Source: a virus
Reading direction: 5' to 3' (one strand)
DNA: 22,325 bases
Virus record (IMG/VR): IMGVR_UViG_3300036766_000440
Span: 1 to 22,325 of that record
Of this stretch, positions 1 to 22,325 are shown one piece after another (position 1 is the stretch's first letter; every line of letters begins with the position of its first letter). The notes under the pieces were generated by a model, which saw only the letters and a program-made list of their open reading frames with translations, was not told the origin of the DNA and did no database searches. A program made the translations under genes and the position numbers.

Positions 1-463
1 GCCCATCGTCGTCATACTTGTCGAACTCGTCAAGAATTCGCTGAAGATCAGGTGGCGAATAGTTTGGACCTTTGACTCGAACACGATGAGATGCTTTATC
101 GTCTGGTTGCTTTTCTTTTGTCATATTCGAGCGATGCACTTCCCAGAAGCCATTTACAACTGGAATGTCAAATGCGACCGCAGTTCCAAATACAACGTAT
201 AGCAGATCACATAGTGCATCAAGTACCTCTTTTCGATTTCCTTTCGCCATAGCTTCAAACAACTCGCCGGCCTCTTCACTGATAAGATGTGCGCGGTTGA
301 AGCGCTCATCGTACTTTCCGAAATCTTCAAGAGTATTCGCAATGTCCAAAATTTGCGAGGCCGCTAATGATAGTGTGCCTAGCCCTTTACGCGGCAATGG
401 TTGTGCGGGTGACACCTGTAGCTTGTTGTGAAACTCTTTCACTGCAGCGAGGTATTGAAGCAT
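1..463 (-). CDS. MazG-like nucleotide pyrophosphohydrolase (3' end cut by window)
   Basis: The reading frame starts at ATG 463-461 after a good ribosome site (AAAGGAG, 7 nt upstream) and stays open to the window edge, giving 154 residues without a stop. Residues 60-100 carry the helix-motif pattern of all-alpha NTP pyrophosphohydrolases: HLISEEAGELFEA (metal ligands of the EExxE type, E63, E64, E67), then EVLDALCDLLYVVFG, with E79 and D82/D86 as the likely second acidic pair. Family members hydrolyse NTPs or dNTPs to the monophosphate and pyrophosphate with Mg2+; in phages they are thought to clean or reshape the nucleotide pool or blunt host stress signalling. The C-terminal 40 residues are charged and outside the core. 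It is the last gene seen in the replication operon and lies just after a terminator, so it probably depends on readthrough or is expressed at a low level. The class is fairly sure; the substrate is unknown. Confidence 0.75.
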   Translation of the reverse strand, partial: MLQYLAAVKEFHNKLQVSPAQPLPRKGLGTLSLAASQILDIANTLEDFGKYDERFNRAHLISEEAGELFEAMAKGNRKEVLDALCDLLYVVFGTAVAFDIPVVNGFWEVHRSNMTKEKQPDDKASHRVRVKGPNYSPPDLQRILDEFDKYDDDG

Positions 464-482
464 TGCGCTCTCCTTTAGAAAA

Positions 483-529
483 ACCCGGTGCGGTTCCGCA
501 AACGACAAGTCTGTTTCACCGCACCGGGT
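483..529 (-). terminator. Rho-independent terminator after the CAP-domain gene
   Basis: A perfect 12-bp inverted repeat (ACCCGGTGCGGT / ACCGCACCGGGT, plus-strand arms 483-494 and 518-529) with a 23-nt loop lies 8 nt beyond the stop codon of the CAP-domain gene. On the minus strand the stem ends directly in a run of five T (plus-strand A 479-483). GC-rich stem plus T-run is the standard intrinsic terminator form. The MazG-like gene starts only 16 nt past the T-run, so there is no room for a promoter in between. The hairpin therefore probably reduces, rather than abolishes, expression of that gene. Confidence 0.88.
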
Positions 530-537
530 CCTACCGC

Positions 538-1017
538 TTATTTGAATTGCTGGCACCAAAAGATCTGACCATTACTGCGTTGACAGGCTGCCACGCCTAT
601 GTAGGTATAGCCGCCTAGCATATTGCGACGATGACCTGGGCTATCTGTCCAGTCTTTTACAACACTGGCAGGCGTGCTTTGACCCATTGCAATGTTCTCA
701 CCACCATTGAATCCACCATGCCGCATAACATTGCTGCTTGCCATTTTCTGTGCATGTCGACGTGCCGAGTCCATAATCGACTGATCGACAATCAACGGCG
801 TGAGTCCATGCTGCACTCGCAGTGCGTTCGTGTGAGCGAGCACGTGCTGCTCAATATCGAACATGTTCAACTCACGAGGCTTCATCGTTGCAGCAGGCTT
901 TACATCAACAAGTACAGCTTTCTGAACAGGTACCTCTTGGCGTTGACGCTGACGAGCGATAACGCTGCCGCCCATGACAACAAGACACACGATCATGATC
1001 ACAACAAGCACTCGCAT
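538..1017 (-). CDS. Secreted CAP/SCP-domain protein
   Basis: 159 residues, ATG 1017, with AAAGGAG 7 nt upstream. Residues 1-21 form a signal peptide or membrane anchor (MRVLVVIMIVCLVVMGGSVIA). A linker follows, and residues 57-158 match the CAP (SCP/PR-1, YkwD-like) fold: HTNALRVQHGLTPL, the helix with H88 in RHAQKMA, GGENIAMG with E107, then SPGHRRNML with H129, and IGVA ... IFWCQQF. H88, E107 and H129 fit the CAP cavity residues; C145 and C155 could form a disulfide. The protein should act outside the cytoplasmic membrane. CAP proteins of bacteria have no single agreed function (suggested roles include ligand binding and wall association), so a role in envelope modification or exclusion is only inference. 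It is an odd member of a replication operon, sitting at its end just before the terminator, as accessory 'moron' genes often do. Confidence 0.85.
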   Translation of the reverse strand: MRVLVVIMIVCLVVMGGSVIARQRQRQEVPVQKAVLVDVKPAATMKPRELNMFDIEQHVLAHTNALRVQHGLTPLIVDQSIMDSARRHAQKMASSNVMRHGGFNGGENIAMGQSTPASVVKDWTDSPGHRRNMLGGYTYIGVAACQRSNGQIFWCQQFK

Positions 1018-1037: not shown

Positions 1038-3887
1038 TTAGAACTCTTCCTTCCTCTCCTTAACGAAATCAGGACGATCCACTACCGAACCATTGTCAAG
1101 CATGCCTTTTAGTAGTCGTATGTACGGCGGTGTCTTACGGTACGTACGACCATCACGGGTGAGAGCGTGCTTGCGCACAAGAAACGATAATAGGTCGTTC
1201 GCGTCGCTACGATCCCATGCACACCAGTCTTGGATGTCGACCAAGTCGATTGTTGCAGTGTGCAACGATTGCTTAATGAAGTCGCGGGGAAATGGTGTTT
1301 CGTTCAAGCGATGTTTGATTGACTGTTCGTCTACGAGCTCCTGTGTCAACCTAATGGCCGCAGTGTAATCACCATACCCGAATGCGGGAGCTTGATAGAT
1401 TCTTCGAAGGTGCTGGACAATGAACTCAACATGGCAGCGTCTAACTCTGATAACTTCCATGCTCTCTGTTGCACACGAGTAAGTACGCGCTGCAACACTG
1501 GCACATAGGCGCGCAAGTTTGTGTCGGGTGGAGCCTCGATCAATAATAGGTAATGCATCTGAAAACTCCTCACATAGGTTTGTTGATGACTCCATCAAGA
1601 AAGCAACAGCGTCTTCGTCAAACTGTACTTGATTCGCTGTTCTTGTCCACGCCCAAAGAATTAACGCACGGCATAGGTCAGACGTATACGTGTGCATTAC
1701 GGCCGGACGATTACTTTGAAGTTGATTCAACATTGCAGGGTCGATCTCATTCGATGCTACGATGCTGATCATATCAAATCTACGGATGTCTTCAAGACCG
1801 CCGATCAATTCCTTGACTGCTTCGATTCCGAAGTTGTATGCGGACATCGGATGGTCGGTACGCGGATTGGACAAAGCAATAAGCCGCGTGCGCGCAAACG
1901 TGCGTCTCTTTTCGATTTTAGGAATCTCTGCAATGCCCGATGACCGCATGTCAGTAAGTTTAGCAATGACCTCAATGTTGGCCCCCTTAAGTTCTTCGAG
2001 AATTACAAGACGCTTATCGTGCGTTGGAATGATGCCCCACGTAACGAACCAGCGACTGCCCAGTTGTTGAAGACCACCCAGTAGTCCTGCTACAGATGCA
2101 TTCTTACATTCGACCTTTTCGCCGAGCCCGTAGTGCTGCATGAGATTCAAAGCTGTCTCAGATTTACCCTGTGCAGAATCTCCTACGACGAGAACCTCCA
2201 CCCAACCTTTTATATCACACTTACCATCGAAGTTGAGCAGCAGCGGACTGTGATATGCAAGGTCGATAATAATGTGAATATCTCGTCTTTGATAGATACG
2301 AGTTACGTTTGCTTCCAAGTCGCTATATATATTGTCAAGAACTGTACAAATCCCCGAGCTAGTCCACTCATGGGGTTGGAAGACTTTTAGGCGCTCCAAG
2401 TTGTCAGGTTCATAGGTGGATAGTGCGTCCTTTGTCGGTTCATATGCACTGATTAGAAGCGTTGACTGCTGTGTTTTCGGATGCGGATACATTCTACCGA
2501 TCAGTGCATATGACTCATTCAACTCTAATCCAGCGCCTATGCACAGTGCAGGCTGCATGACACGTTCCACTGATCGGTTTGATATTTCAAGTTGTGGGCT
2601 GATGCGCACATCTTCAACGTTAAAGTATTCTTTTGCTACGAAGTTGACTACACTGCACGTAGGCGGAATACCAACTGCGCGCATCAATGCATCGCGCTGA
2701 GCCGTTCGAGGCGCACTGACCATTTCTAATATCGATGCAGTCTCTGGATGTATTTTGAATTCCTGCGTTTCGGCTGCATACACAGGGCATATCGCGCATT
2801 CTTTCTGGCTCTTGTCGCATTGAACATCAGTGAGTGCCGGTATGATATACGGTGCAGTATCCATCGCGGATATAACAGCGGATACACTGATACGCTTACC
2901 CGTCCATCGTGCGTGCATTGCTTGCGAGAGTGCAACGATTTCTGGCTCTGTGTCTTCGAGTGCAATGCCAATGACTTTTGGTTGCCACACGTCGCATGCA
3001 TCAAGAAGCTCTTTGAGTGTGCCATGCTCTTGCCCAGCATAGTCGTTAATGTCGCCGTGTGGATACTTATCAACATCAAGTGGTAGTACAACGTTACCTA
3101 TCCAATCTGCGACTCGATGCAGTTGTGCGCATAGCGCTTGCGCTGCGACTTGCCCTTCTTTATCGATGTCGTAGCATACCCACACTCGCTTACGGCTAAA
3201 TTGTGGGGTGAATGATACGTCCCAATTGCCCTCGCCCGCTGTCGTTGTAATTGCTCCGATCCCAAATGCATTTAATTGCGACGCTGCAACTATAGCTTTG
3301 CACTCCCCTCCACAAAGTAAGATATCATCGAACTCAAGTTGTCGAATCGGAAAGAGGCGAATGCGACTGTGGCCTTTAACATTGCGCATCTTATCCTTGC
3401 CCGGTGCACCAGGAAGGTATTTACGGATATTGACATAGAGGCCTGTTTCATTCGTAATTGGAATTGTAATTCGTCCATCATTTTCTCCAAGACGATACTG
3501 CCGTATGTCAGCATCAGTGATGCCGCGTACGTAGAGTTCTTTGAGTAGCGGCTTTGCCTCCCAGATGCTACTGTGATAGCGCTCAATAAGATCAGTGCTA
3601 ATAATCTTCGCGTCATCAAAAGTATATCGCTTTGATAAGTCTGCAAGAACAACTACGCGTGTTGACTTTAGCACACCTACGAGAAAAGTTACAAAGTCGC
3701 CTTTAGCTAAACAGCCCGATGCTTGACACCTGAACAAACGCTTATCTACATTGATCGAAGCACTAGGCGAATTGTCTGCATGAAATGGACAGCAAGTCTT
3801 GATCTCGTCTTCGCCCGCCCACTCATAGACTATCCCGCATCGCTCAAGTTCAGCGAGCACATTAATCTGTTGTGGAAGTCCGGTCAT
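1038..3887 (-). CDS. Primase-helicase: DnaG-type primase joined to MCM-type AAA+ helicase
   Basis: 949 residues, ATG 3887 after TAAGG. N-terminus: CHC2-like zinc finger (C32/C33, H36, C54, C59, then GDFVTFL at 63-69). Residues 115-182 resemble the DnaG RNA-polymerase core (RGIT, GRITIPI, RNVKGHSRIRLFP). TOPRIM follows: E195 in LLCGGECKAIVA and the acidic motif CYDIDKEG at 238-245. Residues 305-480 have a Cys group (C357, C364, C367) where MCM proteins carry an OB/zinc domain. Residues 560-800 are MCM-like: Walker A GDSAQGKS (569-576), NASVAGLLGG (596-605), Walker B RLVILEEL (626-633), sensor 1 ALSNPR (N674), arginine finger in RRFDM (702-706), sensor 2 GSTRHKLARL (R788). The last 80 residues look like a winged helix. 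It should unwind DNA and lay primers at the phage fork. Walker B has EE where MCM normally has DE. Domain calls are by motif reading; primase part very likely, MCM assignment likely. Confidence 0.88.
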   Translation of the reverse strand: MTGLPQQINVLAELERCGIVYEWAGEDEIKTCCPFHADNSPSASINVDKRLFRCQASGCLAKGDFVTFLVGVLKSTRVVVLADLSKRYTFDDAKIISTDLIERYHSSIWEAKPLLKELYVRGITDADIRQYRLGENDGRITIPITNETGLYVNIRKYLPGAPGKDKMRNVKGHSRIRLFPIRQLEFDDILLCGGECKAIVAASQLNAFGIGAITTTAGEGNWDVSFTPQFSRKRVWVCYDIDKEGQVAAQALCAQLHRVADWIGNVVLPLDVDKYPHGDINDYAGQEHGTLKELLDACDVWQPKVIGIALEDTEPEIVALSQAMHARWTGKRISVSAVISAMDTAPYIIPALTDVQCDKSQKECAICPVYAAETQEFKIHPETASILEMVSAPRTAQRDALMRAVGIPPTCSVVNFVAKEYFNVEDVRISPQLEISNRSVERVMQPALCIGAGLELNESYALIGRMYPHPKTQQSTLLISAYEPTKDALSTYEPDNLERLKVFQPHEWTSSGICTVLDNIYSDLEANVTRIYQRRDIHIIIDLAYHSPLLLNFDGKCDIKGWVEVLVVGDSAQGKSETALNLMQHYGLGEKVECKNASVAGLLGGLQQLGSRWFVTWGIIPTHDKRLVILEELKGANIEVIAKLTDMRSSGIAEIPKIEKRRTFARTRLIALSNPRTDHPMSAYNFGIEAVKELIGGLEDIRRFDMISIVASNEIDPAMLNQLQSNRPAVMHTYTSDLCRALILWAWTRTANQVQFDEDAVAFLMESSTNLCEEFSDALPIIDRGSTRHKLARLCASVAARTYSCATESMEVIRVRRCHVEFIVQHLRRIYQAPAFGYGDYTAAIRLTQELVDEQSIKHRLNETPFPRDFIKQSLHTATIDLVDIQDWCAWDRSDANDLLSFLVRKHALTRDGRTYRKTPPYIRLLKGMLDNGSVVDRPDFVKERKEEF

Positions 3888-3939: not shown

Positions 3940-4767
3940 CTAGTACTCCGTTGCGGCTTCCTCTTCAGGATCTTCATGATCGACGACGATACGCGATTCG
4001 TCGTGAGATTGTTTAAGTTCGAGATGCTTTACTCTTAGCATCTCATAAACAGCCTCGTCAGTCACCCATCCGCCCATGTCCGATTCAACTGACGGGTTCA
4101 TGACATCGATGCCGTACCACTCGCCTTGGTCGTTCTTGCGGTATCTGGAAACCGCTTCGAACTGGCATCCAAAGATAGGCGCTCGTCGCATCTTAATGAG
4201 TGATGCGAAGTTACTGCCCGCCCGATGCTCAGACCGAACGAAGGACATGACTACTGGTGTCCCAGCGGCCATACCCTCGCCTGTGAGAACCACACAGTAA
4301 TTCAAGTGCTCACAGTATCTGATGTTCCACTTTTGATCTTCAGGACACGGTGCGAGTCGAGTCTCAGGATTGCGAGCTCGAATAGCGATCTCAGACTTGG
4401 GGTCGATCGTGCGTTCACGAATCGGTGGCAGAGATCCTTTGAGTTGATAAGGGTTCCATATACACCATTCTGCAAAGAAAAACACTGGGATGAAATGGAA
4501 AGGTGTCCCAGTGTCTGTAGGCCTCTTTTTGTCGTCCAAGATAACTGGAGCAACAGTGACCATCTGCGGAACAAGAACGACATCACCGACATTGAAGAGT
4601 TTGCTGAATGGCTCTTTTGAGGTCGGCTGCACCACTTTGACACGCGGTGGAATAACGTACTGCCGCAGTACTTCAGTGCCGATCTGTGCGTCGTTCTGCA
4701 TGAACGATGGTACACTCAGCGTACCCAACTGCTCGTCTTGAACAGCTACTTCATTCTTTTTTGCCAT
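3940..4767 (-). CDS. Putative ssDNA-binding-like replication protein
   Basis: 275 residues from ATG 4767, chosen because AAGGA lies 7 nt upstream; an in-frame TTG six codons earlier has no such support. After a polar N-terminus (MAKKNEVAVQDEQ) comes PPRVKVVQPTSKEPFSKLF and GDVVLVPQMV, then a beta-rich core with many aromatic residues (FHFIPVFFFAEWCIWNPY) and a Cys/Trp/Tyr patch (APCPEDQKWNIRYCEHLNYCVVL). The C-terminus is strongly acidic (DHEDPEEEAATEY), a common feature of phage and bacterial single-stranded DNA-binding proteins. Together with its place directly before the primase-helicase this suggests a DNA-binding partner at the fork. I do not recognise a named family with certainty; the function is inference. 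The hairpin after the gene may raise its yield over the primase. Confidence 0.5.
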   Translation of the reverse strand: MAKKNEVAVQDEQLGTLSVPSFMQNDAQIGTEVLRQYVIPPRVKVVQPTSKEPFSKLFNVGDVVLVPQMVTVAPVILDDKKRPTDTGTPFHFIPVFFFAEWCIWNPYQLKGSLPPIRERTIDPKSEIAIRARNPETRLAPCPEDQKWNIRYCEHLNYCVVLTGEGMAAGTPVVMSFVRSEHRAGSNFASLIKMRRAPIFGCQFEAVSRYRKNDQGEWYGIDVMNPSVESDMGGWVTDEAVYEMLRVKHLELKQSHDESRIVVDHEDPEEEAATEY

Positions 4768-4808
4768 TGTAGAATCCTTGTTCAAAGTAGATGAACCTCT
4801 CTATACTT

Positions 4809-5351
4809 CTACGTAACCTCCTTTCTTCTTGTAATTTGAAGCTTGTAAATCGAATACGTCTTCGTAGGATCGAGACCACCGGGGAGAGGCTTGCCCTGCT
4901 CCATCAACGAAGATACGTAGTCGATCATTCCTGGCCAATGTGGTTCGATCGGTGCGTGTTGTTCGCTCGGGATGTCCCATAGACCTCTAGGTATACCCAA
5001 GCCTGTCATTAACTCCGCATAGCCTGCAGGATCTTGCTTTCGTTTGGGCAGAGACACCATCATTTTAACGTCAGGTTTCGCGCTGCAGTACTCTGTACGA
5101 ATTGGTGCAGGGTCTCCTGCTTGCACCCAGATGATACAGGCCATGCGTTCGATATGCTCTCGAAGTAAACGAGCCTCTTTTTCGAGATCTTTGAAAAACT
5201 TTTCAGTCTCTCGTAGCACGTATGCAGCGTCTGCAATTTCATTAACATCTGCGCACTTGAGAACAGCTTCCCTTAGCACGTTCAATTCGGTGTAGAGGTC
5301 CGCATGTACCTTACGTGAATCCACTGCAAATGTCCTGGCACTATCCAACAT
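4809..5351 (-). CDS. Conserved-looking hypothetical protein with N-terminal coiled coil
   Basis: 180 residues, ATG 5351, with AGGAG 8 nt upstream. The start lies inside the end of the preceding gene (11-nt overlap), so the two are probably translationally coupled. Residues 10-75 are helical and rich in Leu, Glu, Lys and Arg (for example VLRETEKFFKDLEKEARLL), consistent with a coiled coil. The middle, PAPIRTEYCSAKPDVKMMV, and the C-terminal part look globular, with several Pro and Trp residues. No catalytic motif is visible. Its place between the SNF2 helicase and the ssDNA-binding-like protein suggests a role in replication or recombination, but this is by association only. Confidence 0.7.
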   Translation of the reverse strand: MLDSARTFAVDSRKVHADLYTELNVLREAVLKCADVNEIADAAYVLRETEKFFKDLEKEARLLREHIERMACIIWVQAGDPAPIRTEYCSAKPDVKMMVSLPKRKQDPAGYAELMTGLGIPRGLWDIPSEQHAPIEPHWPGMIDYVSSLMEQGKPLPGGLDPTKTYSIYKLQITRRKEVT

Positions 5352-5667
5352 CTGCCATGTCTCCTATGGGGATGGGCTTGTACGATTTGTTTTGAACCTC
5401 AAATGCTAGCACATTAAAGGAACCCCAGGCCGCGCCCACTGCAGCGACAGTCACAGCGATGATAACCGTACTGCCGGCGAGCAGAATGTAGTCTCGCTTC
5501 TGATTGAAGTCAAGATCTTCAAGTCGTTTAATGAGTTCTTTTTGAAACTCAGGTACATACATGCTGCTTCGACTTGTCTCTCCACCAAAGACGTATACAA
5601 GTGGACCGTACTCCGTTGCAGCAGAGATATCCTTAGGGGTGTGCTCAACTACAAATACTTTACTCAT
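5341..5667 (-). CDS. Small hypothetical phage protein with hydrophobic segment
   Basis: 108 residues from ATG 5667, which overlaps the SNF2 stop codon by 8 nt (ATGAGTAA) and follows AAAGGGG. A GTG one codon upstream is less suitably placed. Residues 1-30 (KVFVVEHTPKDIS, YGPLVYVFGG) look like a beta-alpha start. Residues 60-90, DYILLAGSTVIIAVTVAAVG, are very hydrophobic; they could be one membrane helix, but the surrounding pattern (D-x-I-L-L-x-G ... A/G-rich helix ... strand ... K-x-Y-x-P-I) also fits small soluble proteins that phages often keep among their replication genes. I cannot assign a function. It is tightly packed between the helicase and the 180-residue protein, so it is probably real and co-translated. 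Confidence 0.7.
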   Translation of the reverse strand: MSKVFVVEHTPKDISAATEYGPLVYVFGGETSRSSMYVPEFQKELIKRLEDLDFNQKRDYILLAGSTVIIAVTVAAVGAAWGSFNVLAFEVQNKSYKPIPIGDMADVG

Positions 5668-7675
5668 CACTGATCACCCCTTTCAGCACAGCTCGTAGAA
5701 TCTCACGTACATCAGAGATCTGCCACGCCGTAATCCGCTTCTTTGTTACGCGCCTACGAATCTCGTCATCGATGGTACCTGGAATACAAACATCAGTGAT
5801 ACGTACTTGACGTCTTGTGCCTCGACGATAGTTGCGGTCCTCGCATTGCGTGCGCTTGATCATCGACCAGTCTTGCGACATAACGAACACTTGTGTTGCA
5901 TCTGTGCCGTATTCGTTTGCTTGGTCAGGCGGGTATCCCAGTAAGTTCAAACCAACACCACCACAGGCAGGATTGCCAACTAAAACCTTGCAGTCTCGAT
6001 CTTCGTTGAAGGCTCTAATCATATTGTCGCGATCACAATCCTTTACGCCTCCATAGAACGGCACAGCGTAGATACCTTCAGCAAGGAGTCGTTCCATGAT
6101 CTGTTTAATGTTGGGCACCCAACAGGACCACACGATCGACTTTTCATCCGCAGGTTTTTCTTTAAGTGCTTGCACAAGGGCTTCGATCTTGTTGTTGGGC
6201 GCAAAAAAGTCGATCTGCTTTTTTGTGACGACGTTGCCTTCTTCATCGAACGACCCATCCCATGTAATAAAGCCAGAGGCGATTTGTGCAAGACGCAAAA
6301 GTTGCGTTAACACGTTGTTGATAACAAGGCTTTTGTCTTCAGCCTCATTGAGTTCGCTTTCTAGTTTAGCGACAAGATCGTGCCTGACTTCCTCGTAGAT
6401 CTTTGCCTGTATATCAGTCATCGATGTTTCAAGAACATCGTAGACTTTCTTTGGCAGATCAGGCAATGCTTCTTCTTTCCTAATGATAAAAGAGTATCGT
6501 GCAAGTCGCTCCTGCATGAATGGTAAGTTCTGCAGGGCGACGAGTTTATCACCGTGTTGTGTTTTCTCAAAGACACCGTAGAAGCTACGAAAATTCTTCC
6601 ACGACATGAATCCGCTGAAGCCCTTGCCCAGAAATTCAAACTGCGAATAAATGTCAAGAGGTGTGTTAGCAATCGGAGTTGCAGTCAAGCACATTCGTTT
6701 GCGCGCAGATTCTCGAAGTACCATCGCTGCTTGCGAACGCTTTGTCGTTGGCCACTTTATGCACTGTGACTCATCAAGTGCAATCAAGTCCCAAGTAATG
6801 GCCTTTAGGGTTTCGAGCATTCGAGTCATAGTCTCATACGAAACGATCACAACGCTGTAGTCATCGCCATTCGTTGAGTGCAAAGCATCAATAAGCAATT
6901 TGATTCTGCCAATTTGATCGCCGCGAAGAACTGTAACTTTTCCATGCACTGTCGAAAAGCGCTCGAATTCATCGACCCAATTCGTGCGCACTGCACGCGG
7001 GCACACGATAAGCGCACGATACATGCGCTCTTCTTTTGTGCGCACCGTCGGCGCTTCATTGCATACTGTTGCGATAACACACGGCGTCTTGCCCGTACCG
7101 GTGTCCATGAACAGGCCGTAGCCCTCGCTACGAATCGCACAAGCGGTTGCTACTTGCTGGTAACCCGAAAGAGGCCGATCTTCGTGCAGTGTCATTGTTG
7201 GTTCGTAATGCACACTCAAATTCGGTGCAATAGTATTGTCACCGTTGCATTCCCACTCAACATGAAGATATGGCCGACCTGGAAGCTCTTTGTGCGCGTG
7301 GTACTTTGCAACTGTTTCGATGTTCCTATCGTAAGCAGCAATCATAGTAAGCAAGTACTCGTAGATAAGCTTTGTCTCATCATCTTCGAACTCTACGCTC
7401 AATTTTGGCCATATCACATCGATGATTGACGCTGTGGTATCAGTTGCAGCGAACAGCCACTCGTCTTGACGGCCAGTAAGCTCTTTGCGTTCTGGGATGC
7501 GCAATGGAAAAGTTCGTCGAGCTGCAAGGCTTGCAAATCTCGAAAACTCATTTACAGAGAAGATGCGCGCGTCGAAGTGCAGGCCGTCTCGATCAAGCGC
7601 GAGATGCACACGATCTTCATCGTGTAGCCTGAGAGGGGCGAGAAGTGCTTGAGTAGCTTTCGTGAGAGTCTTCAT
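5660..7675 (-). CDS. SNF2-family DNA helicase/translocase
   Basis: 671 residues from ATG 7675, chosen because GAGGAC stands 6 nt upstream and a strong promoter lies just before it; an in-frame extension to 7813 would run back through that promoter. Helicase motifs in order: LSGYQQVA (about 170), Walker A MDTGTGKT (190-197), Ia CPRAVRTNW (225-233), Walker B DESQ (301-304), III LTATP (330-334), then the SNF2-type insert after IANTPLDIYSQFEFLG, and in lobe 2 IVWSCW (514-519), V GNPACGGVGLNL (567-578) and VI QCEDRNYRRG (610-619). SNF2 proteins are ATP-driven double-stranded DNA translocases. In phages, related proteins sit with replication or recombination genes and may remodel forks, move branches or strip bound proteins. 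It is the first gene after the promoter, so it leads the replication operon. Confidence 0.9.
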   Translation of the reverse strand: MKTLTKATQALLAPLRLHDEDRVHLALDRDGLHFDARIFSVNEFSRFASLAARRTFPLRIPERKELTGRQDEWLFAATDTTASIIDVIWPKLSVEFEDDETKLIYEYLLTMIAAYDRNIETVAKYHAHKELPGRPYLHVEWECNGDNTIAPNLSVHYEPTMTLHEDRPLSGYQQVATACAIRSEGYGLFMDTGTGKTPCVIATVCNEAPTVRTKEERMYRALIVCPRAVRTNWVDEFERFSTVHGKVTVLRGDQIGRIKLLIDALHSTNGDDYSVVIVSYETMTRMLETLKAITWDLIALDESQCIKWPTTKRSQAAMVLRESARKRMCLTATPIANTPLDIYSQFEFLGKGFSGFMSWKNFRSFYGVFEKTQHGDKLVALQNLPFMQERLARYSFIIRKEEALPDLPKKVYDVLETSMTDIQAKIYEEVRHDLVAKLESELNEAEDKSLVINNVLTQLLRLAQIASGFITWDGSFDEEGNVVTKKQIDFFAPNNKIEALVQALKEKPADEKSIVWSCWVPNIKQIMERLLAEGIYAVPFYGGVKDCDRDNMIRAFNEDRDCKVLVGNPACGGVGLNLLGYPPDQANEYGTDATQVFVMSQDWSMIKRTQCEDRNYRRGTRRQVRITDVCIPGTIDDEIRRRVTKKRITAWQISDVREILRAVLKGVISDE

Positions 7676-7709: not shown

Positions 7710-7738
7710 ATTGTACCAGGATTGCTTTCATATGTCAA
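7710..7738 (-). promoter_or_regulatory. Near-consensus extended -10 sigma70-type promoter for the replication operon
   Basis: On the minus strand there is a perfect -35 box TTGACA (7738-7733), a spacer of exactly 17 nt, an extended -10 TG (followed by one base), and the -10 box TACAAT (7715-7710), one mismatch from TATAAT. The predicted start of transcription is around 7703, about 28 nt before ATG 7675, leaving room for the GAGGAC ribosome site. The -35 box includes the TGA stop codon of the GT25-like gene. It should allow host RNA polymerase to transcribe the SNF2 helicase and the genes after it early in infection without a phage activator. No operator-like repeat is seen beside it. Confidence 0.87.
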
Positions 7739-8358
7739 TCCCAAAACCAAAATGTGGTACCGTGCCGAAAGCCACTTATGTCTGAACGATGTGCACTTTG
7801 CCCAAAAAGCCAACGCTTGGGAATATAGACATTACGTGATGTGTGTAATTCACCTAGACGATGATCGCAGTGGTGCTTGCCTGCCCAGGTTTCATGTGCA
7901 AGCAAGTAATCTCGTGCAATGCGAATCATACCTCCACGAATCATGTATGCGTGCATGCGATTCACATTGAATGCGCGAAAGCATAGATCATTCACTTTTT
8001 GAGGTGGATTCTCTTTTTTCTTGAGCAACTGCCCACCTAGGTAGATCATATCCCAGTTTGCAGGCACGCTCTCAAGAAACGGCAATAGCGATTCATTGCA
8101 ATCGCTCGAAGCTATTGCATCGTCTTCAAAAACGGTGACTATATCTATAGCCGCCTGGACACACCAATCTAGCACAGCCAAGTGAGATTGATAACAACCC
8201 CAGGCCCCCGGACTAGAGTGCCATCTAGATGCTTCTAGAAGTCCTATTCCGGGGATAGCTGGCCACCGTTGAACGGGTCCGACTACTGGCGGGAGCTTTG
8301 ATTTGAATTTCTCCCACTGGTCTTTTCGAGCATCAAGATTTATGCAGAAGGAGTGCAT
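7735..8358 (-). CDS. GT25-like glycosyltransferase
   Basis: 207 residues, ATG 8358. It begins CINLDARKDQWEKF (the 'INLDxRxDR' type start of family 25). Then GAWGCYQSHLAVL (51-63, the conserved G-x-x-G-C-x-x-S-H segment), VTVFEDDAI (74-82, E78, D79, D80 as metal and sugar-nucleotide ligands) and WDMIYLGGQ (102-110). These are hallmarks of GT25 enzymes (LPS glycosyltransferase, collagen galactosyltransferase-like). The C-terminal part HHCDHRLGE to YIPKRWLFGQS also fits. Acceptor and sugar are unknown. The start lies inside the end of the GT2-like gene (19-nt overlap) with no good ribosome site, so translation is probably coupled. Unlike its two upstream neighbours its base composition is the same as the rest of the phage. 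Confidence 0.82.
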   Translation of the reverse strand: MHSFCINLDARKDQWEKFKSKLPPVVGPVQRWPAIPGIGLLEASRWHSSPGAWGCYQSHLAVLDWCVQAAIDIVTVFEDDAIASSDCNESLLPFLESVPANWDMIYLGGQLLKKKENPPQKVNDLCFRAFNVNRMHAYMIRGGMIRIARDYLLAHETWAGKHHCDHRLGELHTSRNVYIPKRWLFGQSAHRSDISGFRHGTTFWFWD

Positions 8359-9659
8359 TGTTCTGCGCGGTCGATTGCAAGCTTAACAAGTGCCTCGAAC
8401 GGCTCGCTCCACGAATCCATCTTCCAAGCGAGGCCATTGGTTGCGGCCCAGGCCATCGCCTTCGCGCTGTCCCACTTAGAGAAATTCACCATGCCGTCCT
8501 TCAAGAAACCAACGATCGTCCAGTAATTAGCGCGGCATCCCTCGACGCCCCACATATCCATCTGGTTCATCTTGGCTTCGCAACCGCCGCAGCCGTCTTT
8601 TTGTTCAGCGGCTTCCTTCTGCTCGATGCGGATGCTCTTGAAGATTTCGCGCAGTTCCGTGCCAGGTCCGCCCTTGGGACGCACGGGTTGTGTTCTCGGC
8701 GGCGGTGCCGGCATCACGGATGCTGGATCAGCGAGCAGCTTGTCCCACTTCTCTTGCGTGATGTGCTTCTCGGCAAGTAGGTGTTCTCGCATCCGATCAA
8801 GCGACCGGCCTTGCTCTTGATGGCCGAGAATGTAATTGCCCCACAGCTCGCCGTTGGGAATGCGGCTTGCGCTCATCGGTGAGTAGCGCGCGAAGCCAAG
8901 ACAGACCGCTTTACCGCAGGCCGTGCAGAACTTGTCGTGCAAGTAGAACTCGGCACCAGCAAAGCCCGTGAATTTTGGATGGAAGCCGGGCCAGTGCGCC
9001 TTGCGAAAGGAAAAGAACTCCAGGCCCTGTGCAGGAATCTCGAATTCATCATTGGGCGAGTAGCCAAGTGGTCGCCAGCCGTTGGCCATGAGCGTGTCGA
9101 AGTGATGCACGAATTGACACTCCGGGCCTTCGCCAGTGTAAGCAGTTGTGCCGTCCGCCTGCGGAAAGACGCTGATGCGCGTGCCGTCTGGTTGTTCCCA
9201 GACGTTCGCCGGCACGCCCCAGCGTGGCCCGGCCCAACGATCGACCATATGAGTCGCGATGCTTTGTAGGTCGTCGCCAACAAGCACGCCGCCTACGATG
9301 CTACGCGAGTCGGGATGCTCATCGTGCCACTTACGCAGCCGCGTGATGACGCCGGGATGAATTTGCATGGGAGAATCGACGCACATCACAACGTCTGTCT
9401 GTGCCGCCTGGATTGCAATCTCGCGCGGGGCTGCGCTGCCATCCCAAGCAGTCACCGACATGGCCCCTACATTCGCGCCCAATTTGCTGCGGCCCGACAT
9501 TACCTTGTAGAAGTTGGCGCCGCCCGCATCCGGCGCCATCGTCGCCGTGATGAATTCAATTTGCCGACAGTCGTTTTGTAGACGAATGGATTGAATCGTG
9601 TTCCACCAGCCCACCTGATTGTCGCGGACGGTGACGATGATCGTGAGATTCGGTTTCAT
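8340..9659 (-). CDS. GT2/GT-A-like glycosyltransferase with Cys-containing C-terminus
   Basis: 439 residues from ATG 9659, which starts 1 nt after the stop of the Cys-rich protein; a longer open frame upstream overlaps that gene and starts with a low-complexity shadow, so it was refused. Residues 4-40 (NLTIIVTVRDN ... SIRLQNDCRQIEFI) are the nucleotide-sugar strand-helix-strand start of GT-A enzymes. DVVMCVDSPMQIHPGV (89-104) is the place of the DxD-like motif, here CVDSP. A central region with Trp, His and Phe residues (FHPKFTGFAGAEFYLHDKF) resembles acceptor regions. After a Pro-rich linker (316-333) comes CGGCEAKMNQMDMWGVEGCR (357-376), whose three Cys residues may bind metal, and a final helical part. 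The DNA is clearly richer in G+C than that of the phage genes outside the cassette. Function as glycosyltransferase is likely; target unknown, perhaps the Cys-rich protein encoded just before. Confidence 0.72.
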   Translation of the reverse strand: MKPNLTIIVTVRDNQVGWWNTIQSIRLQNDCRQIEFITATMAPDAGGANFYKVMSGRSKLGANVGAMSVTAWDGSAAPREIAIQAAQTDVVMCVDSPMQIHPGVITRLRKWHDEHPDSRSIVGGVLVGDDLQSIATHMVDRWAGPRWGVPANVWEQPDGTRISVFPQADGTTAYTGEGPECQFVHHFDTLMANGWRPLGYSPNDEFEIPAQGLEFFSFRKAHWPGFHPKFTGFAGAEFYLHDKFCTACGKAVCLGFARYSPMSASRIPNGELWGNYILGHQEQGRSLDRMREHLLAEKHITQEKWDKLLADPASVMPAPPPRTQPVRPKGGPGTELREIFKSIRIEQKEAAEQKDGCGGCEAKMNQMDMWGVEGCRANYWTIVGFLKDGMVNFSKWDSAKAMAWAATNGLAWKMDSWSEPFEALVKLAIDRAEQCTPSA

Positions 9660-9660
9660 G

Positions 9661-11859
9661 TTAGGGTCCAGAGTAGGCACAGTCGATGACGTAGTATGGT
9701 TCACAGTAGCCGAACGCGGTATCCCCTTGGCAATGACCGTCGTTACACACACCACCTTCACTGGCTCCGCAAGGCTTGCCGGGATACATGTCCTCGCCTT
9801 CGTAGACGCCGATGCAGGTGCAGTACAGCCCCGTGTTGATGAGCGAGCAATCGTCATCGCGCGCGGTCCAGACCCAGCCACCTACACCATCGGGCAGGCA
9901 ATCGACTCCGCAGACATTGCCGGGATCGGCGCCGCAGGGTGTTGTTTCCGAGCAAACGGCGCAGCAGGCACCAAAGGAGCCGTAAGGCCCATTGACATTA
10001 TTTGTCGATCCGCCCTGAAAGCAAACGGTGCCTTCGTAGCACCACCATTCGCCGCCGATCGGACAATCGGCATCACACAACGCTTCGCTGGCATACGGGC
10101 CGCCGGCCGCGCCCGAGCCGTAAGCGTCCTGCGAGCATGTGCCATCGTCCCAACACCACCAAGCCAAGGGGCAGTCTGCTTGGCACTCGGACTCGCTGCC
10201 ATAGGGGCCGCTCACGGAGCCGGTGCCGGTCGCGTCTTGAATGCAAGGACCGTTCGCGTAGCACCACCAGAGTTGCGGGCAGGCCGCGTTGCAATCTTCT
10301 TCGGTGTCGTAGGGACCAGTGCCGCCGCCTGCGCCGCCGTCTTGGACGCAAGGCTGCGTGTCGTTGCAATAGAAGGGGCAAACCGGGCCAGTGCAAAAAT
10401 CATCGCGCGTGTCGCTGGTAACAGTCAGCGTCATCGCGGCCGACGGAATACAATAATGTGAAAAATCAGCCGGGAAACTGTCGATGCCGTAAGTCGCATT
10501 CGCACCGTAATGAACGTGACCGCCATGCTCATCGCAGGTATTCGCACGCCAAGTCGAATAGATCAGGCCGGCGTTCGCATTGTTGACGGCCGTATGGATC
10601 ACGCATTCGGACACCGACAGCGCAGGCGTGCGGTAGTATAAGTCCCACGATTCCGAAGATCGGCACATCTGGGAACCGCTGATTTCTGTATCTGAGCAGG
10701 CTGCCCAATGAACGCCGATTTCCCAATAAAAATCACCCTCTATGTCATTCGTCGGAAAGATACCCGCACCGCGCACCACCCGAGCGCAGATATAGACACC
10801 GTTCGCCATGCCTGAGTCGCAATCGTCCGTCACGTCGCCGATGCTTCCGTTAATCAAAGCCGCGTATGGCCACGTATAGCATTCCGCCGTGACTGGCAAC
10901 TCATTCCAACACCAGCGGCAATTCCAATCCACCTCACGGAAGTTTTTGATATTGAGCGTCTGTCCAATTCCACCGCCGCCATTCAGGCCGTCACAACCCG
11001 GCAGCGGTTGCGCTGGACACTCGCCCGTGAAGGCGTCGGGTCCGATGTACGTCCCGATCAGGCCGATATTCCAGGGGTCGCCAGCGTTCTCGTCCCAGCT
11101 ATCAATTTCTAACTTGAGCGTGACCGGCATTTGCAGCTTGCAGCCGACGATAGCCGTTTCGTCGCAATCCATCAGGCACGGCGGATGTGCGCACTCGGGA
11201 CAGGTCGTCGCCGTGCCGCCCGTCGCGTGACTCATCGAAAAACGAAAGTGCCTAAAGTAGGCCGTGCCGCCGACGCCCATTCCTAGACCGCACTTCGTTC
11301 CCGTCACGGTCTGACCGTAAGCCGTCGCGACCACTTCGCCGTTGAGCGAAGCGTGAATGCGCCCGTCATCCGTGACGCAAACGCTGGCCGTGTACCATGT
11401 ATCCTCATTGATCGTGCGATTGCCGGTGCCGATTGGCGTGCCGCCAGCCGTGTAGAGTGTGACTGATCCAGAGGAGCCATTGATGGCGTAACGTGCGTAG
11501 AAATAAGTGGTCGTGTTCACCCAGCCGACAAGGACATCCACATATTCGTTGTTAGTATTATGCTTGAACCAGACTGACACCTTCATCGTGCCGACGCCGT
11601 CGGGGTGCGCCGTGTTGCAGTGCATGTTGCCCGGCGACGTGCAGCGCAGCTCGCCGGACGTAATATCCCACGCGCCGGAATCTTCGGTGTAGGCGCAGCC
11701 GGTTGGCGCGCCAGTGCTGATGTTGGAACTATTGGCGCGACCGAAGTCGTCGGCGCAGATGTCGCAATTCGGACAGGCTGCAATGCACGGAGGATCGCAA
11801 GGCAAGCCGATGACGATGCCTATCACCCCGATAATCAACAGTAACGCTACGAACGACAT
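9661..11859 (-). CDS. Cys/Trp-rich secreted or anchored protein with LamG-like domain and four repeats
   Basis: 732 residues from ATG 11859, 2 nt after the previous stop; an in-frame TTG six codons earlier is less likely. Residues 2-18 are hydrophobic (FVALLLIIGVIGIVIG), a signal peptide or anchor. Residues 37-210, from DDFGRANSSNIST to YFRHFRFSMS, look like a concanavalin/LamG-like beta sandwich (WYTASVCVTDDGRIHASLNG is typical). A Cys-rich middle follows. Residues about 494-636 hold four repeats of about 36 residues with the pattern WWCYxxGxCxQD...GPYxSExxCxAxC. The end has more Cys pairs. Very many cysteines imply disulfides and an extracytoplasmic place, unusual for a virion protein assembled in the cytoplasm. 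It is either a tail-tip/receptor-related protein at the end of the late operon or a surface protein displayed by the infected cell. High G+C marks it as foreign to the phage. Function unknown. Confidence 0.78.
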   Translation of the reverse strand: MSFVALLLIIGVIGIVIGLPCDPPCIAACPNCDICADDFGRANSSNISTGAPTGCAYTEDSGAWDITSGELRCTSPGNMHCNTAHPDGVGTMKVSVWFKHNTNNEYVDVLVGWVNTTTYFYARYAINGSSGSVTLYTAGGTPIGTGNRTINEDTWYTASVCVTDDGRIHASLNGEVVATAYGQTVTGTKCGLGMGVGGTAYFRHFRFSMSHATGGTATTCPECAHPPCLMDCDETAIVGCKLQMPVTLKLEIDSWDENAGDPWNIGLIGTYIGPDAFTGECPAQPLPGCDGLNGGGGIGQTLNIKNFREVDWNCRWCWNELPVTAECYTWPYAALINGSIGDVTDDCDSGMANGVYICARVVRGAGIFPTNDIEGDFYWEIGVHWAACSDTEISGSQMCRSSESWDLYYRTPALSVSECVIHTAVNNANAGLIYSTWRANTCDEHGGHVHYGANATYGIDSFPADFSHYCIPSAAMTLTVTSDTRDDFCTGPVCPFYCNDTQPCVQDGGAGGGTGPYDTEEDCNAACPQLWWCYANGPCIQDATGTGSVSGPYGSESECQADCPLAWWCWDDGTCSQDAYGSGAAGGPYASEALCDADCPIGGEWWCYEGTVCFQGGSTNNVNGPYGSFGACCAVCSETTPCGADPGNVCGVDCLPDGVGGWVWTARDDDCSLINTGLYCTCIGVYEGEDMYPGKPCGASEGGVCNDGHCQGDTAFGYCEPYYVIDCAYSGP
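10000..10378 (-). repeat. Four diverged Cys/Trp-rich protein repeats
   Basis: This covers the part of the Cys-rich gene coding four units of about 36 residues. Shared positions are an aromatic-Cys start (FYC, WWCY, WWCW, WWCY), G/T-x-C-x-Q about seven residues later, a Gly/Ser/Thr-rich loop, GPYxS/T-E, and C-x-A-x-C at the end. Each unit probably forms a small disulfide-bonded fold. The DNA of the units differs, so the duplication is old or under diversification rather than a recent copying event. Borders are given to about 15 bases. Confidence 0.7.
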
Positions 11860-11861
11860 GC

Positions 11862-12602
11862 TTACCCGCACCCCCAAGGCTCAATGTACCACACGCCTTT
11901 TAGCTTATGCGCTAAGCAGAACACCCCTGCAGCTATATCAATGTCTGTTCTATTGCACGTGTCAAAGCTAACAAGTGGATCACTAACCGTTTCGCTGCCA
12001 CCCGGCCCGTCCCACACTTCAACTGTCTCTGTCGCGCCTGCAGAGTGCGCCACAGTGGTTTTAACAAGCCTCGCATTGTCTCCAGACCCGCCGATCGACA
12101 CGACCCAAGCATAGTCCTCTGCCTCTTCAACTGCAAGGCAAAGCAATCCAGCGCCGTCAAGACTAATCCCAAATGTACCAGACTCTGGACCGCATTCCTC
12201 TCCAGGCACAGGCACTGTACCGGTTACTTGAATGCGCGTTGGAAAAACTCCAATAACTCGGATCTCTGCTTGTCCATCCGCAGGGATCTTGGAATTTTCA
12301 TTTGTGAAAAGTACTAGGCTATTGTCGCTTGTAGACTTTTCAACCTCTACCATTAGAGGCTCTGCAGTTCCTGCGCCCGTATCTTTTGCAGAGAGGACAG
12401 AGTAAGGGTCTACAGCTTCAGCGCACTTGCCGAACAGGTGCACAAGTGAAGTGCTTTGGATACGAGAAGCAACGCCGTTGCCTGTATCAATACCGGCAGA
12501 TAAGTAGCCTGATCTTAAAAGAAGTGCGACTACTGCGTTCCATTCAGACGTTTTAATCGTCCGACCGCGGCCATGCTTCGGCTTGAGATCATCTTTGGAC
12601 AT
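11862..12602 (-). CDS. Hypothetical tail-tip-side protein
   Basis: 246 residues from ATG 12602, which begins 1 nt after the stop of the previous gene; an in-frame alternative start eight or nine codons upstream would overlap that gene. N-terminus KPKHGRGRTIKTSEWNAVVA, then segments rich in Val, Thr and Gly that look beta-stranded (AEIRVIGVFPTRIQVTGTV), and a Cys-containing end (GVFCLAHKL, YIEPWGCG). No enzyme motif is visible. Being third after the tape measure gene in a siphovirus-type late operon, it could belong to the tail tip or baseplate, but this is from position only. The following Cys-rich gene starts 2 nt after its stop. Confidence 0.68.
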   Translation of the reverse strand: MSKDDLKPKHGRGRTIKTSEWNAVVALLLRSGYLSAGIDTGNGVASRIQSTSLVHLFGKCAEAVDPYSVLSAKDTGAGTAEPLMVEVEKSTSDNSLVLFTNENSKIPADGQAEIRVIGVFPTRIQVTGTVPVPGEECGPESGTFGISLDGAGLLCLAVEEAEDYAWVVSIGGSGDNARLVKTTVAHSAGATETVEVWDGPGGSETVSDPLVSFDTCNRTDIDIAAGVFCLAHKLKGVWYIEPWGCG

Positions 12603-21488: not shown

Positions 21489-21957
21489 CGCTATCGGTAT
21501 CCAGTCGAATTTTGCCAGAGAGAATTTGATCTAAGAACTTTTCGACCATGTCACGATGCGCCGAGAGTTGATGCTTGGGCTTGCCATCTTCGCTCATGTC
21601 TGTGATGCCACGACTATCGTAGAGCAAGACGCCTGCGTATCGAGCACTCATCGATACAATGCGCGTTGGCGGGTCAGTAAATGGAATAGTATAGCGACCT
21701 CCTCGAAGACGATCGTCGATATACGCTCGTGCCTCAGACAGAGCCCAACAAATTCGCTGGTCAATCTCATAAGCACTTTCAGTATTTTCGACGTCTGCCC
21801 ATTTACGCACGTTGCTTCGACCAAAGATAAGTTCAATATCCTTGCTCTCTGCATACATGGGCCGAGAACAAATATCTTCGGTATCTGCACCTCCGAGGAA
21901 CATCTGGCCGTTGAACTGCTGGCCAGTAAATTGCTGGCCGTCAAATAACTGACTCAT
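21451..21957 (-). CDS. Mu gp36-like (DUF1320) head-tail connector with repeat arm
   Basis: 168 residues, ATG 21957 overlapping the previous stop (TAATG). Residues 1-23 are a peptide of F-x-G-Q units (see the repeat entry). Residues 35-150 fit DUF1320: ESKDIELIFGRSNVRKWAD, IDQRICWALSEARAYIDDRL, GGRYTIPFTDPPTRIVSMSARYAG split by LLYDSRG, then HRDMVEKFLDQILSGKIRL. This helical family is placed at the head-tail joint next to the portal. In Mu the gene comes after the capsid protein; here it precedes the F-like gene, so the order is rearranged. Good confidence for the family, moderate for the role. Confidence 0.8.
   Translation of the reverse strand: MSQLFDGQQFTGQQFNGQMFLGGADTEDICSRPMYAESKDIELIFGRSNVRKWADVENTESAYEIDQRICWALSEARAYIDDRLRGGRYTIPFTDPPTRIVSMSARYAGVLLYDSRGITDMSEDGKPKHQLSAHRDMVEKFLDQILSGKIRLDTDSDAITYPQVVKRR
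21889..21945 (-). repeat. Short FxGQQ repeats at the start of the gp36-like protein
   Basis: Residues 5-23 of the gp36-like protein are four units of five residues: FDGQQ, FTGQQ, FNGQM, FLGG. In DNA these are 15-nt units, TTT/TTC NNN GGN CAG, with changes mostly at the second and third codon positions. This pattern is not part of the DUF1320 core. It may be a flexible binding arm or a small beta-helix-like cap. Confidence 0.7.
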
Positions 21958-22325
21958 TACGGCTCCTCGTAGACGAGATCAGTGGTATTGCTGTCAGCAT
22001 CAAAGGTGGCTTGAAAGCGGAAATCGTCTGCGTAGCCCCTGTAAGTTTCAACGCTTGTGCCGATGCCTGAGCGTTTGCCTACAGCACCCGCAAAGATCGT
22101 ATCCATAAACACTTCGAAGTCGACACTCATAAGCTGAGGCAGTACGATGCGATTATCGGCCAGCTCAAGACTTGCAAATCCCGTTGGCAAGGAGGCCGCG
22201 AGTTCAGCGTTAGTGGGCAAGTCTGCCACCGCAGCCGCAGTCGCGTACGGGGACAACGCTGTTTCGAGTTCAGCGTTAGTGGGCAAGTCTGCCACCGCAG
22301 CCGCAGTCGCGTACGGGGACAACGC
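21957..22325 (-). CDS. Fibre-like protein with 22-residue tandem repeats (5' end cut by window)
   Basis: 122 residues are visible, open to the right edge; the first codons seen (A-L-S-P-Y) are internal, so an apparent TTG start at 22322 is an artefact. Two copies of a 22-residue unit, LSPYATAAAVADLPTNAELE/A, stand at the edge, of a type common in trimeric tail or head fibre stalks (short helix, turn, Ala/Leu positions for packing). After the repeats comes ASLELADNRIVLPQ and a beta-looking C-terminus (VDFEVFMDTIFAGAVG, DFRFQATFDADSNTTD). Its place before the gp36-like and F-like genes is unusual for a tail fibre; a head fibre or a connector with a stalk is possible. More repeats probably lie outside the window. 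Confidence 0.65.
   Translation of the reverse strand, partial: ALSPYATAAAVADLPTNAELETALSPYATAAAVADLPTNAELAASLPTGFASLELADNRIVLPQLMSVDFEVFMDTIFAGAVGKRSGIGTSVETYRGYADDFRFQATFDADSNTTDLVYEEP
22199..22325 (-). repeat. Perfect 66-bp tandem repeat in the fibre-like gene
   Basis: Bases 22199-22259 are identical to 22265-22325 (61 of 61), with a period of 66 bp, or 22 codons, so the reading frame is kept. The right copy is cut by the window edge, so copy number is unknown. Perfect identity at DNA level points to a recent duplication or to recombination between copies, which would allow changes in fibre length. Confidence 0.9.

Follow-up and report, generated by a model that had tools for sequence, protein, structure and literature searches.

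The window analysed here, the whole stretch of 22,325 nucleotides of the virus record IMGVR_UViG_3300036766_000440 (IMG/VR), carries on its minus strand an open reading frame for a protein of 949 amino acids. Sequence profiles, structure models and fold searches identify this protein as a DnaG-type primase (CHC2 zinc ribbon, RNA-polymerase core and TOPRIM domain) fused to an almost complete MCM. The MCM half consists of a zinc-bearing OB N-tier, the MCM AAA+ core and a C-terminal winged helix. The presence of a DnaG-type primase and an MCM-type helicase in one chain, claimed in the original prediction, was upheld by these three kinds of evidence, and all motifs quoted there were located in the reading frame, each at definite residues. 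With a profile built from 13 relatives and compared with all PDB sequences, the first 300 positions matched only DnaG and the T7 and T4 primases, and after position 490 or thereabouts only MCMs were detected. The full-length AlphaFold2 model, calculated with an alignment of 62 relatives, reached a mean pLDDT (predicted local distance difference test) of 90.

The zinc ribbon of the N-terminal half was recognized by Pfam (Zn_ribbon_DnaG, PF01807; E 7.7e-10, above the cut-off) with C33, H36, C54 and C59 as ligands, and the zinc domain of 1d0q matched the model of this half with Z 9.1 over 85 aligned residues. The match to Toprim_3 (E 8e-5) fell slightly short of the Pfam cut-off. Folded separately, with an alignment from which GenBank rows were left out, the N-terminal half gave a pLDDT of 94.7. 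Its fold matches were DnaG, T7 gp4, Twinkle and T4 primase; Z was 19.6 for DnaG 2au3 (root-mean-square deviation 3.2, 209 aligned residues), 19.5 for 5guj and 18.4 for T7 gp4 (1q57). The family profile of this half found primases only in the PDB (A. aeolicus DnaG 9e-32, T7 gp4 8e-10, T4 primase 2e-9). No Pfam match to PF01896, the catalytic domain of the archaeo-eukaryotic primases (AEP), was obtained at the N terminus of the window protein; the domain is present in one of 13 family members and in the AEP-MCM protein L123. D240, D242, D279, R155, K166 and the zinc-ribbon ligands are invariant or nearly so among the relatives. Of the TOPRIM acidic motifs named in the original prediction, the DxD (D240/D242) and D279 are intact, whereas the universal glutamate is Gly193 and the usual aspartate is Lys197. 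Because the glutamate that is invariant in TOPRIM domains at the end of strand 1 is a glycine here, this half is best described as DnaG-type with an altered TOPRIM site, not as a canonical DnaG.

For the C-terminal half, the Pfam match to MCM (PF00493) was slightly under the cut-off (E 6.8e-5; 22.5 vs 23.3 bits). The model matched 13 of 13 family members (best 3.4e-13), but also sequences in each of the 14 control genomes, among them that of E. coli, so that this match alone is not specific. The assignment was obtained from other searches. The family profile of this half found MCM2 (1.7e-12) and archaeal MCM (3.4e-11) in the PDB; down to E 10 only MCM chains were reported, with the exception of an RGS chain that matched by chance (E 0.33). 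The best 50 Foldseek matches were all MCM (top 6.5e-23). In the VIA comparison, residues 314-840 of the model aligned with residues 103-604 of 6mii, an archaeal MCM-DNA complex (Z 30.1, root-mean-square deviation 4.4, 456 aligned residues). Among the VIA matches shown there was no non-MCM fold for residues 309-845, which by itself excludes nothing. No match to DnaB_C or a RecA-fold helicase was found in the window protein by Pfam or by the profile search of the PDB, where MCM was found instead. With PF00493 not trusted alone, another AAA+ or RecA-fold identity for this half was rejected on the profile and fold searches; the outcomes named at the outset as fatal to the fusion, namely a better fit to such a family or an N-terminal half other than a primase, were looked for, and MCMs and primases were the best matches of the respective halves.

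Since the VIA alignment spans residues 103-604 of 6mii, the OB/zinc N-tier and the AAA+ core are present and only NTD-A is missing. All alignments begin at about MCM residue 103, and the DnaG module occupies the place of NTD-A. NTD-A is an accessory helical subdomain of MCM, and its loss is therefore read as a variant of MCM and not as an exclusion from this group. In the full model the helix-2 insert and the pre-sensor-1 hairpin form strands at residues 604-617 and 652-664. Among 62 relatives there is no variation at the Walker A lysine, Walker B Glu632, sensor-1 Asn674, Arg703, K790 or R793. The same holds for the four cysteines of the N-tier, C357, C364, C367 and C411, which probably form the MCM zinc finger; in the protein of Paenibacillus phage SV21 three of these four cysteines are missing jointly. 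This group of cysteines and the Walker B EE had been regarded as oddities of the protein. Both proved to be family traits; among 166 family members, 90 have EE and 70 have DE. The positions of all features are listed in the table.

Table. Features of the primase-helicase gene and of its neighbours in the window (all on the minus strand; residues refer to the 949-residue protein)
Feature	Residues	Position	Strand	Basis or remark
DnaG-MCM fusion protein P0001		1038..3887	-	949 amino acids, ATG start, intact without internal stop; full-length relatives known
CHC2 zinc ribbon	26-90	3618..3812	-	Pfam PF01807 and 1d0q match
DnaG RNA-polymerase core with TOPRIM	91-300 (TOPRIM 186-300 = 2988-3332)	2988..3617	-	Structure and profile matches
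TOPRIM motif 1, LLCGGECKAI	190-199	3291..3320	-	Gly193 replaces the usual catalytic Glu, and Lys197 the usual Asp four residues further on; Glu195 conserved
Loop after TOPRIM strand 2, TTTAGEGN	214-221	3225..3248	-	Glu219 gained directly after invariant Gly218
TOPRIM DxD (D240, D242)	236-245	3153..3182	-	Invariant in 79 N-half sequences
MCM N-tier, OB fold and zinc site, NTD-A absent	311-505	2373..2957	-	VIA alignment from model residue 314
N-tier cysteines	C357, C364, C367, C411	2655..2819	-	Invariant in 62 relatives
MCM AAA+ core	506-835	1383..2372	-	Profile against PDB and Foldseek
Walker A, GDSAQGKS	569-576	2160-2183	-	Within MCM AAA+ core
Helix-2 insert		2037-2102	-	Within MCM AAA+ core; NASVAGLLGG from residue 596
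Walker B, LVILEE	627-632	1992-2009	-	Within MCM AAA+ core
Pre-sensor-1 hairpin		1893-1937	-	Within MCM AAA+ core
Sensor 1, ALSNPR	671-676	1860-1877	-	Within MCM AAA+ core
Arginine finger R703, RRFDM	within 700-706	1770-1790	-	Within MCM AAA+ core
Sensor 2 K790/R793, RGSTRHKLARL	784-794	1506-1538	-	Within MCM AAA+ core
C-terminal helical/winged-helix-like domain	850-931	1095..1340	-	Model secondary structure and MCM-like position; no separate structural match
SNF2/DEAD-type helicase		5660..7675	-	Pfam SNF2-rel_dom 3.8e-31; near 72/115 family loci
Pam3 gp32-like protein		5341..5670	-	Pfam PF23992 E 2e-11; near 16/115 loci
180-residue cassette protein, function not assigned		4809..5351	-	Near 50/115 family loci, all Glu219 type
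Pam3 gp34-like protein		3940..4776	-	Pfam PF23977 E 9.3e-13; near 73/115 family loci
MazG/PRA-PH-like NTP pyrophosphohydrolase, downstream of primase-helicase		2..559	-	Pfam PF01503 E 1.9e-13; near 51/115 loci; runs off contig

The original prediction overlooked the substitution of the TOPRIM glutamate, and the reciprocal exchange of this residue is the least expected part of the findings. The key motifs of this domain are the invariant glutamate, the invariant glycine after strand 2 and the DxD; metal binding and catalysis depend critically on the glutamate and the DxD (PMC6755086). In the window protein Gly218, D240 and D242 are intact despite Gly193. Next to Gly218 stands Glu219, which aligns with the threonine of the G-T loop in E. 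coli DnaG when the N-half profile is compared with the PDB. Both TOPRIM sites could be read in 166 DnaG-MCM sequences. Glu193 with alanine, serine, valine or cysteine at position 219 was found in 84 of them and glycine or alanine at position 193 with Glu219 in 82; no sequence had glutamate at both positions or at neither. The tree requires four changes at site 193 and four at site 219, and all four independent pairs are reciprocal. An alignment shift which would make Glu195 the catalytic residue was ruled out, as the canonical members carry Glu195 beside Glu193. Sequencing error or decay as the origin of the Walker B EE and of GGECK was rejected as well: each is a fixed feature in dozens of relatives, and the ratio of nonsynonymous to synonymous substitutions (dN/dS) is low. 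For the N-terminal half it amounts to 0.03-0.06 in pairs of the Gly193/Glu219 type (two pairs computable), which indicates strong purifying selection and disfavours decay of the primase half. This pattern suggests that Glu219 replaces the missing Glu193 and is a relocated catalytic glutamate. In at least four lineages, among them that of the window, the catalytic glutamate would have changed its place, from position 193, where strand 1 ends, to position 219 in the loop that follows strand 2, with the primase still working on the leading face of the phage MCM ring; we give this even chances. One DnaG-MCM relative (L093, 2127-4964) has no Pfam match to the CHC2 zinc ribbon and shows an independent Glu193-to-Glu219 exchange of its own.

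The fusion is not peculiar to one phage, since cultured phages in GenBank already encode it. A tblastn search among cultured and assembled phages gave 50 records, 41 of them with at least 80% cover, annotated mostly as 'DNA primase' or 'DNA primase/helicase'. Carriers in culture include phages of Microbacterium, Arthrobacter, Bacillus and Paenibacillus. The 'DNA primase/helicase' of Krampusvirus, Wollypogvirus, Bacillus phage BSP7, Weizmannia phage Youna2 and Paenibacillus phage SV21 has the same architecture over nearly the full length with 24-31% identity (tblastn). Unlike the window protein, most of these have the canonical TOPRIM motif EGExD and Walker B DE; SV21 has AGEKD, an equivalent of Glu219 and Walker B EE. 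In IMG/VR at least 320 relatives were found with one pair of patterns, and altogether 166 DnaG-MCM and 34 AEP-MCM sequences were gathered. Among 84,980 bacterial species genomes there were four loci only, all from metagenome-assembled genomes and with no clear host or prophage, which suggests that the DnaG-MCM phages are mostly non-integrated. MCM helicases in phages and bacterial mobile elements as well as AEP-MCM fusions are already known (PMC5862659; PMC4538821), and GenBank contains DnaG-MCM proteins whose annotated names are generic. In the literature searched, no paper describing such fusions was found; the survey of Kazlauskas et al. (2016) was outside that search and may contain an earlier mention.

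BcMCM of a Bacillus cereus prophage, gp45 of Bacillus phage vB_BboS-125 and PHROG 18685 share with the window protein an N-terminal primase and the origin from phages. PHROG 18685 matches residues 311-927 of the window protein at 1e-78 and gp45 over its whole length, so the MCM half is homologous. In tblastn, vB_BboS-125 matches the window protein only over residues 311-932, with an archaeo-eukaryotic primase in place of the DnaG part. Thus the primase of the BcMCM type is archaeo-eukaryotic (PF01896), whereas that of the window protein is of the DnaG/TOPRIM type; Walker B is DE throughout the AEP-MCM sequences gathered, in contrast to EE in the window protein. BcMCM itself was placed in the AEP-MCM group by its published architecture, not by sequence. 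On an unrooted tree of the MCM half (108 sequences) the label AEP needs two changes, both forced by well-supported branches, one at the Bacillus-type group and one at L140. The latter (4080-7145) is a divergent AEP-MCM; its MCM half clusters with the DnaG-MCMs, apart from the Bacillus AEP-MCMs, and it represents a second independent primase exchange. Because two supported changes are needed, one MCM scaffold has been combined more than once with two unrelated primases, DnaG-type and archaeal-type.

The window protein also resembles T7 gp4, in which zinc ribbon and DnaG-type core are N-terminal to a ring helicase. The helicase half of T7 gp4 has a RecA fold and moves 5'-3', in contrast to the AAA+ MCM of the window protein, for which 3'-5' movement is expected by analogy. 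The idea that the helicase half of a T7 gp4-like protein was replaced by MCM is unproven, as DnaG-MCMs and AEP-MCMs intermingle on the MCM-half tree with at least two primase exchanges. An exchange of primases on a single MCM scaffold is at least an equally good fit; a T7 gp4 which simply lost its RecA helicase is not supported over it by the unrooted tree. With archaeal and eukaryotic MCM (6mii, MCM2-7) the protein shares the OB/zinc N-tier and the AAA+ core, including its set of MCM motifs (Z 30). It differs in the primase instead of NTD-A, an identity of about 14%, the Walker B EE and its occurrence in a phage of a presumed bacterial host. Cch and Cch2 of SCCmec are MCM-like helicases on a bacterial mobile element, and Cch2 is paired with a primase (PMC7581432). 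By description this system is set apart: the polypeptides are separate, the primase is PolA-type and there is no DnaG fusion.

The gene is part of a cassette in the order SNF2-type helicase, Pam3 gp32-like protein, 180-residue protein, Pam3 gp34-like protein, DnaG-MCM and MazG-like protein, which recurs around the relatives. DnaB_C gave no match in the records of 11 relatives, seven of them GenBank phage records, and a PolA-type polymerase was found in nine of the 11. The DnaG-MCM fusion is likely the replicative helicase of the phage. As DnaB_C was not found in these records, the self-contained primosome of the original prediction is plausible at the level of gene content. Between the primase-helicase and the MazG gene lies a gene for a CAP-domain protein of the cysteine-rich secretory protein family (538-1017, minus strand, 159 amino acids, signal-like N terminus, PF00188 E 1.8e-16), with a similar sequence near only one of 115 family loci. 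Further along the minus strand, a family-25 glycosyltransferase (PF01755, 2.1e-7) adjoins a weak glycosyltransferase-2-like protein (0.007, under the cut-off) beside structural genes (7735-8358 and 8340-9881). A protein of 738 amino acids (9661-11877, minus strand) contains cysteine-rich repeats of the type 'WWC...GPY.SE..C...CP' and has no Pfam match. Tandem 'LSPYATAAAVADLPTNAELE' protein repeats (21957-22325, minus strand) are tail-fibre-like and run off the contig.

We consider it likely that the window protein is the primase-helicase of its phage, in which an MCM-type ring unwinds DNA and a DnaG-type primase, probably with a rearranged TOPRIM site, lays the primers. The ring, assumed from MCM homology to have six subunits, would encircle and unwind the DNA, and every subunit would carry a primase on its N-terminal face, where NTD-A is found in other MCMs. 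If it behaves like MCM and BcMCM, the ring would travel along the leading-strand template in the 3'-5' direction, its N-tier facing the fork. For BcMCM, which combines an AEP with MCM, helicase activity of 3'-5' polarity has been reported together with primase and polymerase activities (PMC4538821). Since the N-tier would lead at the fork, the primase would be located where the excluded lagging-strand template emerges, like Pol alpha-primase on the CMG helicase. There, in eukaryotes, Pol alpha-primase is bound to the leading edge of the N-tier above an exit channel for the lagging-strand template, which is flanked by zinc fingers (PMC10501992). The primase of the phage fusion is placed at the N-terminal end of the zinc-bearing N-tier, the same tier as in CMG. 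A helicase-primase of one chain which primes the lagging strand as it emerges would be the simplest reading. In its rearranged TOPRIM site Glu219, beside the invariant glycine, may take over from the missing Glu193.

Several points weigh against this proposal. The full-length model has a pTM of 0.65 and does not fix the relative placement of the primase and MCM halves. With Glu193 and Asp197 both missing, primase activity could be altered, and the sign test on the glutamate exchange (4/4, p 0.125) contains too few independent events for significance. The loss of these two residues would also suit a primase half that no longer primes in the Glu219 clade and is kept for DNA binding or as a scaffold of the ring, with the MCM half active. 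Animal Twinkle is described as having lost priming through changes of the primase domain (PMC3610141). Such a loss is unlikely here, because the aspartates of the site, R155, K166 and the zinc-ribbon ligands are conserved, the dN/dS of the N-terminal half is low, and Glu219 was gained wherever Glu193 was lost, a coupling not expected from decay.

Furthermore, the window is a fragment of 22 kb, so that the phage may encode another helicase elsewhere, and host DnaB could do the unwinding. In that case the protein would be a factor for repair or origin melting, while host DnaB unwinds the fork. The SNF2-type helicase in the same cassette would agree with this, and MCM8/9 are repair helicases. We regard this as quite improbable in view of the missing DnaB_C match in the 11 relatives, and the fused primase, the PolA-type polymerase and the conserved cassette suit a fork machine. 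The chance that the MCM half belongs to another AAA+ group (Mg-chelatase, sigma-54 activator or SF3) with MCM-like motifs is very small. The PF00493 result, under the cut-off for the window protein alone and unspecific in the controls, would allow it, but the profile search of the PDB and the Foldseek and VIA matches, which cover N-tier and AAA+ core, point to MCM throughout.

In general, the primase-helicase described here indicates that the replisomes of bacterial viruses mix parts of both replication systems: one chain joins an archaeal/eukaryotic type of MCM ring to a bacterial DnaG, and elsewhere an archaeal-type primase is found on the same scaffold. With a single polypeptide, it would become possible to test how MCM unwinding is coupled to priming in the absence of CMG and Pol alpha, and hosts of DnaG-MCM phages are available in culture with Bacillus subtilis and Microbacterium foliorum. 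If true, a primase working with Glu219 would break the rule of the invariant TOPRIM glutamate. The reciprocal exchange, if the residue is catalytic, would be a natural experiment on the task of this glutamate and on the positions permitted for it.

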